Of a stretch of 64,000 bases of DNA, positions 50,215-56,697 are shown in pieces; position 1 is the stretch's first letter; each line of letters begins with the position of its first letter. The position numbers were made by a program, and so were the translations under genes. The stretch comes from Alphaproteobacteria bacterium (GTDB lineage Bacteria; Pseudomonadota; Alphaproteobacteria; Micropepsales; Micropepsaceae). The stretch lies in NCBI GenBank assembly GCA_013389115.1, contig JACADY010000061.1, positions 1 through 64,000 on the forward strand. The letters are read 5' to 3'. A model generated the notes under the pieces. It did no database searches and was not told the origin of the DNA. It worked only from the letters and a program-made list of their open reading frames with translations.

Positions 50215-51463
50215 AGCGCAAGGCCTCGACAGGATCGAGGCGGGCGGCGCGCCAGGAGGGATAGAGCGTCGCGATGAAGGCGAGCGTCAATGACATGACG
50301 GCAACGGCGATCACCTCATCGACCTCCATCTGCGCAGGCATCTTGCTTAAGAAATAGATCTCCGGCGAGAAAAGCTGCGTGCCCGACAGCCAGGACATGA
50401 ATTGCCTGATTTCCTCGATGTTGAGGCAGAACAGCACCCCTAGGATCAGCCCCAAAATTGTGCCCACAAAGCCGATGGCTGAGCCGGCGATGAAGAACAC
50501 GCGCATGACACCCCATTGGCTCATGCCCATGGTACGCAGGATCGCGATATCGCGCCCCTTGTCCTTCACAAGCATGATGAGGCCGGAAATGGTGTTCAGG
50601 GCCGCCACGAGAATGACAAGGGAAAGGATTAGGAACATCACGTTCCTCTCAACGATCAGGGCGTCGAAAAAGGCGGCGTTGATCTGCTTCCAGTCGTAAA
50701 GCCGCGCATTCGGAGGCGAGGCGAGGCGAACGGGCTCACGCCAGTTTTCGACCGTGTCTGGGTCATTGATCATGACCTCGATCGAGTCCGTCTTGTTGCC
50801 CCGGCCGAAGAAGAGCTGCGCCTCCTTCAGCGGCATGTAGATGAAGCTTGAATCATACTCGATCATGCCGACCTCGAAGATGCCGGCAACGACATAGGTT
50901 TTCTTGCGCGGGGCGCGGCCCATCACGGTGACATCCCCTTCGGGCGAGAGAAGGGTCACGCGCATGCCAGGGCCAAGGCCCAATTGCTGCGCCAGCCGGG
51001 CGCCCAGGATCACCATCGAGCCTTCAAAGGCATCAGCGGCGCCCTGCGGCTCCAGGCCCTTTGCCACGAGCGGCAGGTTGAGGAGGTTTTCGCGCGTGAG
51101 GCCGCGGACAAGCGCACCGGACTGCACGCCATTGGCGCTTGCCAGCACTTGGCCCTGCACCATCGGCGCGGCACGCACGACACCTGGAACGGCCAGGATC
51201 TTCGCGGCCTCGGCATCATAATCCTCAAAGCCGCCGGTGAGGCTGTCGATGCGCATATGGCCATTGATGCCCAGCACGCGCGAGAGCAGCTCGATGCGAA
51301 AACCGTTCATTACCGCCATGACGATGATGAGCACCGCAACGCCGAGCGCGATGCCGACAAAAGAAAAGCCGGCGATGACGTTCACGAAGCTTTCCTGCTT
51401 TTTCGTGCGCAGATAGCGCCCGGCCAGAAGCCACTCGACCGAGGAAAATGGCACCGCCGCCAT
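50207..51463 (-). CDS. lolC: Lipoprotein-releasing ABC transporter permease (LolC/LolE)
   Basis: This 418-residue permease of the LolCDE complex has four membrane helices: one near the N-terminus (about 25-50, SFVGIALGVAVLIIVMAVMN) and three in the C-terminal third, with a large periplasmic domain between them. The motif SFVNVIAGFSFVGIALGVA is typical, and the C-terminus ends PVEALRYE. Only one permease gene is present here, so it may act as a homodimer (LolF-like) as in other alphaproteobacteria. Its ATG overlaps the proS stop (TGATG). Confidence 0.94.
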   Translation of the reverse strand: MAAVPFSSVEWLLAGRYLRTKKQESFVNVIAGFSFVGIALGVAVLIIVMAVMNGFRIELLSRVLGINGHMRIDSLTGGFEDYDAEAAKILAVPGVVRAAPMVQGQVLASANGVQSGALVRGLTRENLLNLPLVAKGLEPQGAADAFEGSMVILGARLAQQLGLGPGMRVTLLSPEGDVTVMGRAPRKKTYVVAGIFEVGMIEYDSSFIYMPLKEAQLFFGRGNKTDSIEVMINDPDTVENWREPVRLASPPNARLYDWKQINAAFFDALIVERNVMFLILSLVILVAALNTISGLIMLVKDKGRDIAILRTMGMSQWGVMRVFFIAGSAIGFVGTILGLILGVLFCLNIEEIRQFMSWLSGTQLFSPEIYFLSKMPAQMEVDEVIAVAVMSLTLAFIATLYPSWRAARLDPVEALRYE

Positions 51464-52797
51464 CAGGGCGCCGCCGTCAGCAGATTGATCGCCGCATCGG
51501 GGGTCATGGTCCGCCGCTCGCCCGTCTTGCGGTTCTTCACCTCGATCTCACCTGCAGCAAGGCCACGCGGCCCCACGATCACCTGCCAGGGGAGCCCGAT
51601 GAGGTCCTGCACCGCGAATTTCTGGCCCGCGCGCTCATCGGTGTCGTCATAGAGCACGTCCTTGCCGGAATTTTGCAGACGCTCATAGAGGTCGAGGCAG
51701 GAAGCGGATGTTTTCGCGTCATCGCTCTTCAGGCTCACAAGGCCGATATCGAAGGGCGCGACGGCATCAGGCCAGACCAGCCCCGCCTCATCGTGGCTCG
51801 CCTCGATGATGGCGCCCACAAGGCGCGAGACGCCGATGCCATAGGAGCCCATTTCGAGGAACACGTCCTGGCCTTCGGGTCCGGCCACCTTCGCGCCCAT
51901 GGCCTTTGAGTATTTGGTACCGAAATAGAAAATATGCCCAACCTCGATGCCGCGCGCGGAGAGGCGCTTGTCCTGCGGGATGGCCTCAAAGGCGGTGGGG
52001 TCGTGCTTTTCCTCGGTCGCCGCGTAGAGGCTCGTACGCTCCTTGATGTAAGGCGTGAGGTCCGCCTCATAGTCGATCCCGGCAGGCGGCACGGGCATGT
52101 CGATGAGATCGCGATGGCAGAAGACCTGGCTCTCGCCCGTCTCCGCCAGGATGATGAATTCGTGACTGAGATTGCCGCCAATGGGGCCTGTGTCAGCCTG
52201 CATCGGAATCGACTTAAGGCCGAGACGATCGAAGGTGCGCAAATAGGCGACAAACATGCGGTTATAGGCGCGACGGGCACCCGCCGCGTCGATGTCGAAG
52301 GAATAGGCATCCTTCATCAGAAACTCGCGGCCGCGCATGACGCCGAAACGGGGGCGCACCTCGTCCCTGAACTTCCATTGGATATGATAGAGGTTCAAGG
52401 GAAGCTGCTTATAGGAGCGGACATTCGCGCGCACGATCTCGGTGATCATCTCCTCGTTGGTGGGGCCATAGAGAAGGTCGCGGTCGTGGCGGTCCTTGAT
52501 GCGCAGCATCTCCTTGCCATAGTCGTCATAGCGGCCGCTCTCGCGCCACAATTCGGCCGATTGCAGCGTCGGCATCAAGACCTCGATCGCCCCGGCCCTG
52601 TTCATCTCCTCGCGCACAATGGCCTCGATTCGGGTGAGGACACGCAGGCCCAACGGCAGCCAGGAATAGATGCCGGCGGATTGCTGGCGAATGAGCCCAG
52701 CGCGCAGCATCAAACGATGCGACACGATCTGGGCGTCGGCGGGGGTCTCCTTCAGGAGCGGCATGAAAAAGCGTGAGAGGCGCATGGGATAAGCCAA
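51463..52797 (-). CDS. proS: Proline--tRNA ligase (short alphaproteobacterial type)
   Basis: ProRS (EC 6.1.1.15) charges tRNA with proline. At 444 residues it is the short class II form without the roughly 180-residue editing insertion found in E. coli ProRS. Visible are [20 protein letters not shown] near the N-terminus (motif 1 region), the motif 2 region [20 protein letters not shown], motif 3 [17 protein letters not shown], and an anticodon-binding domain to the end. Mischarged tRNA would need a separate editing protein. It is followed by lolC-lolD, a conserved order. Confidence 0.96.
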
Positions 52798-53897: not shown

Positions 53898-55538
53898 CTA
53901 TAGCCCGACGGGCTTCATGCCTTCGAATTTCTGCCGTGGCCCCAGATTCATGATCAGGGATTTGACGTCCACATTCGGCGGCGAATCGACGCCGGAACCG
54001 GGTGCCTCGTCCCTCAGGTCTCCAAGGTCGAAGTTCATGACCTGATCATATTTGCGGTCGATCTGATTACGCAGACGCTGTTCGGCCTCATACCAACGGC
54101 GCTTCGTGCCGTCGTCGTCGCAGCTTTCCAGTTCCTTTTCATCCTTTGCTCCCCAGCGCCGCTCTATGCAGTGATAAGGGTCAAAGGAGAGATCAAAGAG
54201 CCGCCTCATCACCATCTCATAGGTGAGCACGACCGGCTGGCCGTTCGAATTCGTATAGACAATCCGGCACTTCGCGCTTTCCTCCTCGAAGGCCTCGATC
54301 AGCTTGTCCTTCAAGTGGACGCCGTCGAACGCCACACGCGGATCGCGCTTCTGATAGAGATCCAGCAGATGTGCCATGTTATCATGGACTTCCTTGAAGC
54401 GTGTCTTCAGCCGGGCGTCGCGTGAAGGGGTGGAATAGATCTCCCACTCCATGCTGTTCGTGCCATAGATGTTGTCTGGCAGGCGACCGGGTTGATCCTT
54501 GATATTGATCCGCGCGTCGATTGCCGCATCGACCGCCATGCCGCGATCGCGCAAGTCGCTGCAAATGGAACGCATGGAGGCGCGCAGCTCATAGAGGGGA
54601 TCATAGAGCAGCTTGCCATCGGAGAGTTTGAGGCGGGTATACTCCACGAACCCCACCTCGATACCCTCATTGACGAATTTCCCGTTGCGCCAGTTGCCGT
54701 CGGCGTCGGGAGCGTTGCCCACATATTGCTCGGGTGAGAAATCAGCGATCTGCTCGTTGGAGGCAAAGACGACGCGCCCGCCGCGATAGACGCCGTCGCC
54801 GCCGCGGGTCGCGCCCACCAGCTTCACCGGACGAAAGGTCTTGAAGCCCGAGCCGAGCACGGGATCATCGCGCATGAATTGGGCGCCGAAGGTCGAGCGC
54901 GTCAACGTCAGGTCCGGGTGGCTGTCCATGTAGCGGATACGGCCGTCGGGATCGATCTTGTAGACGATCGTCACATGGCCGTTGATGTCGTAAATGACAG
55001 TTCCGGGCCGGATGGAGCCCTTGTCAATCTTCGGCGAATAGAAATCGGTCACGCCCGCGCCGCTGTCGAAGGTGTGCGCGACACGAAAGGTCGCGGAGGA
55101 AACCGAGTTCTTGATCATATCGAAGATCTGCTGGGCATTGTCGCCCGTTCGCACATCCCGGCGGGCAACGATGCGATTGCCAGAAGTGTTGAAGCGGATG
55201 TCGCCCCCGCCCCCCGCCCGCGGGCTAACCGCCGCGGCAAAGGAGAACGGCAGGCCGTGCTTCCAGGCATAGTAAGCCCGCATGAGATAGGGGAGATCCG
55301 CGCAATCGCCGCTGATGCGCAGGCCCCGTGGGTCGGTGTCACGAAACGGATTGGCGGAGGAAGCAAAGCACTCTTCGGCTGTCGAGCAATTGCTCTCACC
55401 GAGCGCGGTTACGAAGCTGGAAAACCCTTCCTCGTCCTCGGCCGTCCATTCGGTCTTGGTGATCTTCCATGTTGCACCTGCAAAGGCAGGACCCACAGAC
55501 AATGCCAAAACAGCAAATACTGCGACAACCAAACGCAT
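53898..55538 (-). CDS. Secreted protein with candidate Cys-His-Asp papain/transglutaminase-like domain
   Basis: This 546-residue precursor has a clear signal peptide (MRLVVAVFAVLALSVGPAFA) from ATG 55538; the frame opens at 55565. The mature N-terminal half contains Cys79 in ISGDCADLPYLMRAYYAWKH, His188 in YDINGHVTIVYKI and Asp205 in RIRYMDSHPD, spaced like the triad of NlpC/P60 or transglutaminase-like enzymes. That reading is inference; no database family was checked. The C-terminal half is helical and charged with three further cysteines. It probably acts in the periplasm or outside. It is the last of a row of secreted unknowns between DUF1467 and the EamA transporter. Confidence 0.7.
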   Translation of the reverse strand: MRLVVAVFAVLALSVGPAFAGATWKITKTEWTAEDEEGFSSFVTALGESNCSTAEECFASSANPFRDTDPRGLRISGDCADLPYLMRAYYAWKHGLPFSFAAAVSPRAGGGGDIRFNTSGNRIVARRDVRTGDNAQQIFDMIKNSVSSATFRVAHTFDSGAGVTDFYSPKIDKGSIRPGTVIYDINGHVTIVYKIDPDGRIRYMDSHPDLTLTRSTFGAQFMRDDPVLGSGFKTFRPVKLVGATRGGDGVYRGGRVVFASNEQIADFSPEQYVGNAPDADGNWRNGKFVNEGIEVGFVEYTRLKLSDGKLLYDPLYELRASMRSICSDLRDRGMAVDAAIDARINIKDQPGRLPDNIYGTNSMEWEIYSTPSRDARLKTRFKEVHDNMAHLLDLYQKRDPRVAFDGVHLKDKLIEAFEEESAKCRIVYTNSNGQPVVLTYEMVMRRLFDLSFDPYHCIERRWGAKDEKELESCDDDGTKRRWYEAEQRLRNQIDRKYDQVMNFDLGDLRDEAPGSGVDSPPNVDVKSLIMNLGPRQKFEGMKPVGL

Positions 55539-55630
55539 GACCCTGCCCCCAATGCCCAGTCGCACCCGGTCCTATCATGGGGACGTCCCGTTCTGGGTCA
55601 AGGTGTTAGCGGGGCACTAGGCTATTCAAT

Positions 55631-56026: not shown

Positions 56027-56247
56027 GAGCCAACATCCGGGAATGGCGTGGGAGGATTTTCGCCCGATCTGAAAGCGCAACGCCTTGCGCCGCGCATTTC
56101 CTGGCACGAGCCCAAGGCGGCAATCCGCTTGAAAAAATCCCGGCAGCGGGGCGATCATTGGTTGCTCTTAGCAGCCATTCGTCACGCAATCGCTAACCAA
56201 CGGGACGTTTCGTGTCGGAATTGGTGCGGTGCAGCAACGATTGTTGC

Positions 56248-56276
56248 GTGACTCCCTTAATTTCTTTTGACATATT
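56248..56276 (+). promoter_or_regulatory. Putative promoter of the 56.3-kb small RNA
   Basis: GTGACT (56248-56253), 17 bp, then CATATT (56271-56276) would start transcription near 56283. Each hexamer matches consensus at four of six positions. It is the best candidate in a gap without plus-strand genes. Confidence 0.35.
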
Positions 56277-56282
56277 GCGGAC

Positions 56283-56394
56283 ATAAAGAAGAAAGGGGCC
56301 TTAACGGCCACAAAGTTTGGGGAGGAGCAAACCGCAGGACGTGACCCCGTTTTGCGGCTAGGAGGCAGGACCGCTGGTCCTGCCTTTTTCTTTT
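56283..56394 (+). ncRNA. Candidate small regulatory RNA of about 112 nt
   Basis: An intergenic plus-strand unit sits between two minus-strand genes, with a plausible promoter and a strong terminator but no frame longer than a few codons. Three hairpins can be drawn: GGCC-UUAAC-GGCC (56297-56309), CCGCA...UGCGG (about 56332-56357), and the terminator stem. A purine-rich GGGGAGGAG (56319-56328) lies between the first two. A GTG at 56341 opens only six codons. It matches none of the housekeeping RNAs (SRP RNA, 6S, RNase P, tmRNA) that I can recall. Confidence 0.45.
56364..56394 (+). terminator. Strong rho-independent terminator of the candidate small RNA
   Basis: A perfect 9-bp stem (GGCAGGACC with GGTCCTGCC), a 3-nt loop and the tract TTTTTCTTTT follow in order. 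No plus-strand gene ends nearby, so it must serve a noncoding transcript or be a relic. Confidence 0.8.
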
Positions 56395-56430
56395 CCGCCC
56401 CTCACTGTCCCAATCTACGGGCCGATCCCG

Positions 56431-56697
56431 TCACTGCGGACGTGGAAAAAACGGGATGTCATCGAGGGTTAGGAGCTGAAACTCGATCACCGCGAAAAGA
56501 ACCCCCCAGATCACGAGCGCGGCAAAGGTCGCGGCCAGCGCCTTGTAAAAGAGGAAGGGATTCTCCGGCGCGGCAGGTTCGGAGCCCGGCACCACTTCGC
56601 CGGCCTCGGCCTGGGATCGACCGCCCCAGGAGGAGACGGCGATGAACGACAACCACCAGGCGATCGCCAGAACCACGATGCTGCCACCCACACCCAT
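56431..56697 (-). CDS. DUF1467 family small membrane protein
   Basis: This 88-residue protein has two membrane helices (about 3-24 and 51-72) separated by the conserved loop GRSQAEAGEVVPGSEPAAP. Layout and motif match DUF1467, a family of unknown function confined to alphaproteobacteria and usually found next to mce, rnj and proS, as here. Its ATG overlaps the stop of the upstream secreted protein (TGATG), so the two are translationally coupled. Confidence 0.85.
   Translation of the reverse strand: MGVGGSIVVLAIAWWLSFIAVSSWGGRSQAEAGEVVPGSEPAAPENPFLFYKALAATFAALVIWGVLFAVIEFQLLTLDDIPFFPRPQ

Follow-up and report, generated by a model that had tools for sequence, protein, structure and literature searches.

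The compact plus-strand unit at positions 56248-56394 of the 64,000-nucleotide stretch of DNA analyzed here (the window) probably encodes a small RNA (sRNA) of ~113 nt that antagonizes MmgR, an alphaR8 sRNA of the same genome. Its core, AAGUUUGGGGAGGA, is the reverse complement, with one G-U pair, of the conserved MmgR seed UCCUCCCUAAACUU, so that the sRNA probably switches MmgR off. That the unit is a self-contained small-RNA gene, as the original prediction had it, can be held with great confidence, as judged by its conserved place, strand and architecture. The further claim of a trans-acting RNA probably stands as well, the likeliest partner being another sRNA (alphaR8/MmgR) and not mRNAs directly.

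The unit consists, in this order, of a promoter-like site, a first hairpin, the GGGGAGGA box, a second hairpin and a terminator. These features and two neighbouring genes are:

56248..56276, plus strand: promoter-like site GTGACT-N17-CATATT (inferred; weak against the consensus)
56279..56391, plus strand: predicted sRNA of ~113 nt (ends inferred: 5′ by the -10 element, 3′ by the T tract)
56289..56300, plus strand: block 1, AAGAAAGGGGCC, which perfectly complements GGCCCCUUUCUU, the terminator tail of MmgR from the same genome
56297..56309, plus strand: hairpin 1, GGCC-TTAAC-GGCC (folding prediction)
56313..56326, plus strand: purine box AAGTTTGGGGAGGA, complement of the MmgR seed with one G-U pair
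56332..56357, plus strand: hairpin 2 (folding prediction and comparison with the congener)
56360..56389, plus strand: intrinsic terminator, 9 perfect pairs and flanking A-T/G-T pairs, then the T tract
56431..56697, minus strand: DUF1467 gene, convergent neighbour and syntenic marker (PF07330, 9e-20)
51463..52797, minus strand: prolyl-tRNA synthetase-like gene (proS), second marker (recognised sequence and tRNA-synthetase Pfam domains)

All elements originally listed for the unit, namely the GTGACT-N17-CATATT site, two stem-loops, a GGGGAGGAG patch and a 9-bp terminator with a T tract, are present in the sequence (GTGACT at 56248-56253, CATATT at 56271-56276, spacer N17). The predicted RNA folds with −49.4 kcal/mol compared with −37.5 ± 3.7 for shuffled sequences (z −3.2; 1 of 200 shuffles as good), and pairing probabilities leave nt 42-46 of the RNA, in the box, unpaired at ~0.99 and nt 41 at 0.62. 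Within 1.5 kb there are four terminator-like sites (shuffle mean 1.8), and the terminator of the unit is the longest of them. The unit would be transcribed from the promoter-like site, which scores 8/12 (shuffle mean 7.4) and is absent from the sigma-70 matches of a promoter scan. This weak site is supported by relatives: the −35-like GTGAC-N17 recurs, the congener carries GTGACA-N17-CATTAA at the same place, and the promoter consensus across copies is slightly higher than in shuffles (8.4 vs 7.1 of 12). The earlier statement that no coding frame exceeds six codons was inexact: the unit contains a 25-codon TTG frame, and a second TTG frame exits through the terminator. Because the congener unit has short indels, no frame is kept, and a leaderless or small ORF was rejected on this lack of a conserved frame.

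The neighbouring genes had been placed on the minus strand, which holds for all of them; their orientation towards the unit had to be corrected, as the DUF1467 gene is convergent and a gene for 175 aa without Pfam match is divergent. There is indeed no plus-strand gene nearby for the terminator to serve, and the genes for secreted proteins, named earlier as the setting of the unit, have no evident link to the sRNA. Three genes separate the unit from proS. At 53898-55565 (minus strand) the window carries a predicted protein of ~550 aa without Pfam match; in g4 genomes, too, the sRNA seems to have the end of a gene with similar sequence close by.

The unit is not really the orphan it was called: syntenic relatives occur at the DUF1467-proS locus. 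A BLAST search with positions 56200-56420 against 60 relatives, which made no use of the box, yielded one clear match, in the only congener (81% over 76 nt, E 2.2e-11), and again just past DUF1467 on the opposite strand. Hairpin 1 of the congener has a longer stem (GGCCGC..GCGGCC), and hairpin 2, whose conservation had been proposed as a check, keeps its pairing despite changes on both sides (A-U to C-G). DUF1467 was detected in 27 of the 96 genomes of the order, and the unit follows it in 15 of them: two in g1, seven in g4, four in g6, one in g3 and one in g7, the last with a damaged box (GGGACTA). No copy was seen there in the other 12, though most of these have mmgR. Among 32 named loci 13 have the unit (Tepidicaulis, a Rhodobiaceae MAG, three Methyloceanibacter, one unclassified alphaproteobacterial MAG and seven Microvirga), and 12 of these 13 copies lie between DUF1467 and proS; no unit was found at the other 19, mostly of Rhodobacterales. 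Most copies were found via the box or a model containing it, so the conservation of the box is partly circular; that of place, strand and terminator is independent of the box-based search. RNAalifold returned no structure on the full MAFFT alignment because the length of hairpin 2 varies, and on 8 rows it retained the terminator and two pairs of the box.

The complementarity to MmgR was revealed by a covariance model built from 8 copies: in many genomes it also matches a second place, the antisense strand of mmgR, and all 19 such loci given to Rfam were identified as mmgR (RF00519), read from the opposite strand. MmgR is present in 88 of the 96 order genomes. The genome of the window has one copy above the cut-off (75.4 bits) and two weak ones; the main copy lies near an N-formylglutamate amidohydrolase (FGase) gene with a GNAT gene between, and an FGase neighbourhood is described for the alphaR8 family (PMC12559287). 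The two weak, alphaR8-like elements lie at C23:16799-16872 and C82:6327-6411 (32.6 and 28.9 bits); by means of G-U pairs the seed of the former, UCUCCUCAAACUU, also pairs with the box of the window sRNA, at a strength reached by 65 of 500 shuffled boxes. Genus g5 carries extra mmgR-like copies with the seed CUGAACUU, as judged by eye in L193, L195, L196 and L198-L201; this genus is mostly without detectable DUF1467, and no sponge-like copy was found in it.

The duplex of the window sRNA with its own MmgR comprises one block of 14 bp, with a single G-U, and another of 12 bp with the MmgR tail, and its total of −91.0 was reached by none of 1000 shuffled sRNAs (−68.7 ± 5.8). The facing letters of MmgR and sRNA vary between lineages: AAGUCU faces AGACUU in Methyloceanibacter, AAGUUAA faces UUAACUU in G025, and AAGUUU faces AAACUU in others. 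Same-genome duplexes average −45.8 compared with −42.1 across lineages (24 of 28 genomes, four being without usable MmgR). A lineage permutation of box against seed gave P=0.09 for 8 lineages; the P of 0.0087 obtained only with g3 dropped was not counted, and the g3 and Tepidicaulis sRNAs fit their own MmgR no better than other MmgRs. Covariation between the two RNAs is thus suggested, not proven, by these sequence comparisons.

Among the alternatives, the one that deserves most attention is a conserved sRNA with a different use of its purine box, either as a Shine-Dalgarno mimic or on other anti-Shine-Dalgarno sRNAs or mRNAs; we consider it unlikely. GGGAGGA is a common ribosome-binding sequence, and the box alone is not extreme, as 18 of 500 shuffled boxes pair equally well with MmgR, which is explained by GGGAGGA matching any anti-Shine-Dalgarno RNA. 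Moreover, CCUCCUCCC loops are described for other alphaproteobacterial sRNAs (PMC3927594). However, the pairing runs past the anti-Shine-Dalgarno core into the lineage-specific MmgR letters (AAGUUU, AAGUUAA, AAGUCU) and in the window also reaches the MmgR tail. In addition, AGTTYAGGGAGGA is nearly absent elsewhere in the 96 order genomes: it occurs almost only in mmgR, mmgR-like siblings or this sRNA, with 8 control hits, and inspection by eye of the nine sites outside the listed mmgR matches gave seven mmgR-like siblings and two chance-like sites. The GGA exposed in the predicted loop would also suit a decoy for a CsrA-like or other protein, which is very improbable given that one or two GGA sites only are present and that the long MmgR complementarity would be left unexplained.

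The terminators speak for the strand on which the sRNA is proposed. All 28 copies sit on the strand opposite DUF1467, and in 27 of them a 9-bp T-tailed terminator follows the box (shuffles 0.9%), compared with 0 of 28 on the other strand; a looser scan, in which a shorter minus stretch was covered, gave 28/28 and 1/28 (G001), respectively. The stems vary (GGCAGGACC, GCGAGGC, GCAAGGC, CAGGCGCGC) but still pair. These counts led us to reject a degenerate mmgR paralog on the minus strand, which the weak mmgR match there (14.2 bits, gathering score 41) and the resemblance to the mmgR 3′ half might suggest; the promoter-like sites and the unit length likewise fit the plus strand, and the paralog retains hardly any probability. 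Equally improbable is a cis-element, either a terminator or 3′ region for DUF1467, just past whose end the unit sits, or the leader of a longer mRNA on the plus strand: only on this strand is the hairpin followed by a T tract, and no nearby gene is encoded on it.

For the proposed antagonist of MmgR, the loop and the sequence preceding it (AAGUUUGGGGAGGA) would pair in the cell with the single-stranded anti-Shine-Dalgarno seed of MmgR and the 5′ block of the sRNA with the MmgR terminator tail. Such pairing would mask MmgR or lead to its degradation and so release its target mRNAs, which in relatives are those of carbon-storage and transport genes; MmgR is reported to limit PHB granules in S. 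meliloti (PMC7143759). The sponge would thereby resemble CrfA, which acts on SisA-D in Caulobacter, and would probably work with Hfq, presumably under a physiological signal. An Hfq gene is found in 87 of the 96 order genomes, the congener included, and was not found in the window genome, a draft 88% complete.

Compared with known families, nothing in the window or in the sRNA loci of relatives reached an Rfam gathering score, an Rfam scan having been suggested earlier as a check; matches at permissive thresholds stayed below the cut-off. 6S RNA was ruled out, as the 6S RNA of this genome was located elsewhere. The suhB/MmgR family (RF00519, alphaR8) shares the box region with the window sRNA as its complement: the 14.2-bit match lies on the minus strand below the gathering score of 41 bits, and the RNA is an antisense-like partner of MmgR, not a member of that family. 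As a separate observation (L089-L111), the 5′ half of the window sRNA, with its A-rich run, GGGGCC hairpin and box, resembles the antisense of the mmgR 3′ half, as though derived from an inverted copy.

Closest in location is the rhizobial sRNA ar9 (RF02343; SmrC9/SmelC289). We take SmrC9 to be the ar9 of Rfam by its matching name and length. In S. meliloti the 149-nt SmrC9 lies between SMc01933 and proS (PMC2780559, PMC2573895) and is reported to bind Hfq (PMC2848018); nearly all of its relatives are described as adjoining proS with one fully conserved hairpin, no target being named in the passages covered (PMC3927594). The window sRNA likewise has the proS locus, the opposite strand, a conserved middle hairpin and a strong terminator, and the core of the ar9 model, CAAgUCuUGGGAgGA, resembles its box; it differs in being shorter (~113 vs 149 nt) and three genes away from proS. 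The position beside proS on the opposite strand is shared by 12 of the 13 named copies and loosely by the window. RF02343 did not match the window at its gathering score of 45 bits nor at any E up to 10, so we do not file the RNA as ar9 and call it a divergent syntenic relative. Relatives score 24.8 bits (L051, E 0.045), 17.8 (L072) and 35.3 (L202), all below 45. A class-wide search gave matches at E<=0.01 in 3 of 385 genomes, none above the cut-off (controls 0/14); only L202 has both an adjacent proS and the box, carrying AAGTTTGGGGAGG with 13 letters as in the window.

Rhizobial ar9 has been on record since 2007 with no target named in the literature covered, and the control of MmgR is only partly understood; none of the titles, abstracts and passages covered, which included few subscription journals, joined the two. 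A role as MmgR sponge would give a testable job to an RNA family of hitherto unassigned role. If RNAs of the ar9 locus sponge MmgR, a switch of carbon metabolism made of two RNAs, which is known from a single species, would become a circuit general to Alphaproteobacteria and open to immediate tests in Sinorhizobium, Methyloceanibacter or Microvirga.

That one species is Caulobacter crescentus, in which CrfA is described as a proven sponge of the alphaR8 sRNAs SisA-D: its G/A-rich second loop pairs with UUUCCUCCCU of these RNAs, and compensatory mutations prove the pairing (PMC12559287). Compared by description, CrfA and the window sRNA share a hairpin followed by a G/A-rich loop that complements UUUCCUCCCU, the alphaR8 core, and the same kind of partner, whereas only for CrfA have a transcript, binding to Hfq and action as a sponge been proven. 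Tentatively, the sRNAs of the DUF1467-proS locus, rhizobial ar9 included, might belong to a single ancient lineage of alphaR8 antagonists in Alphaproteobacteria. This lineage may have arisen from an inverted copy of the alphaR8 3′ half, its matched pairing then being kept through lineage-specific changes on both RNAs, and CrfA would be its Caulobacter ortholog or a convergent twin.
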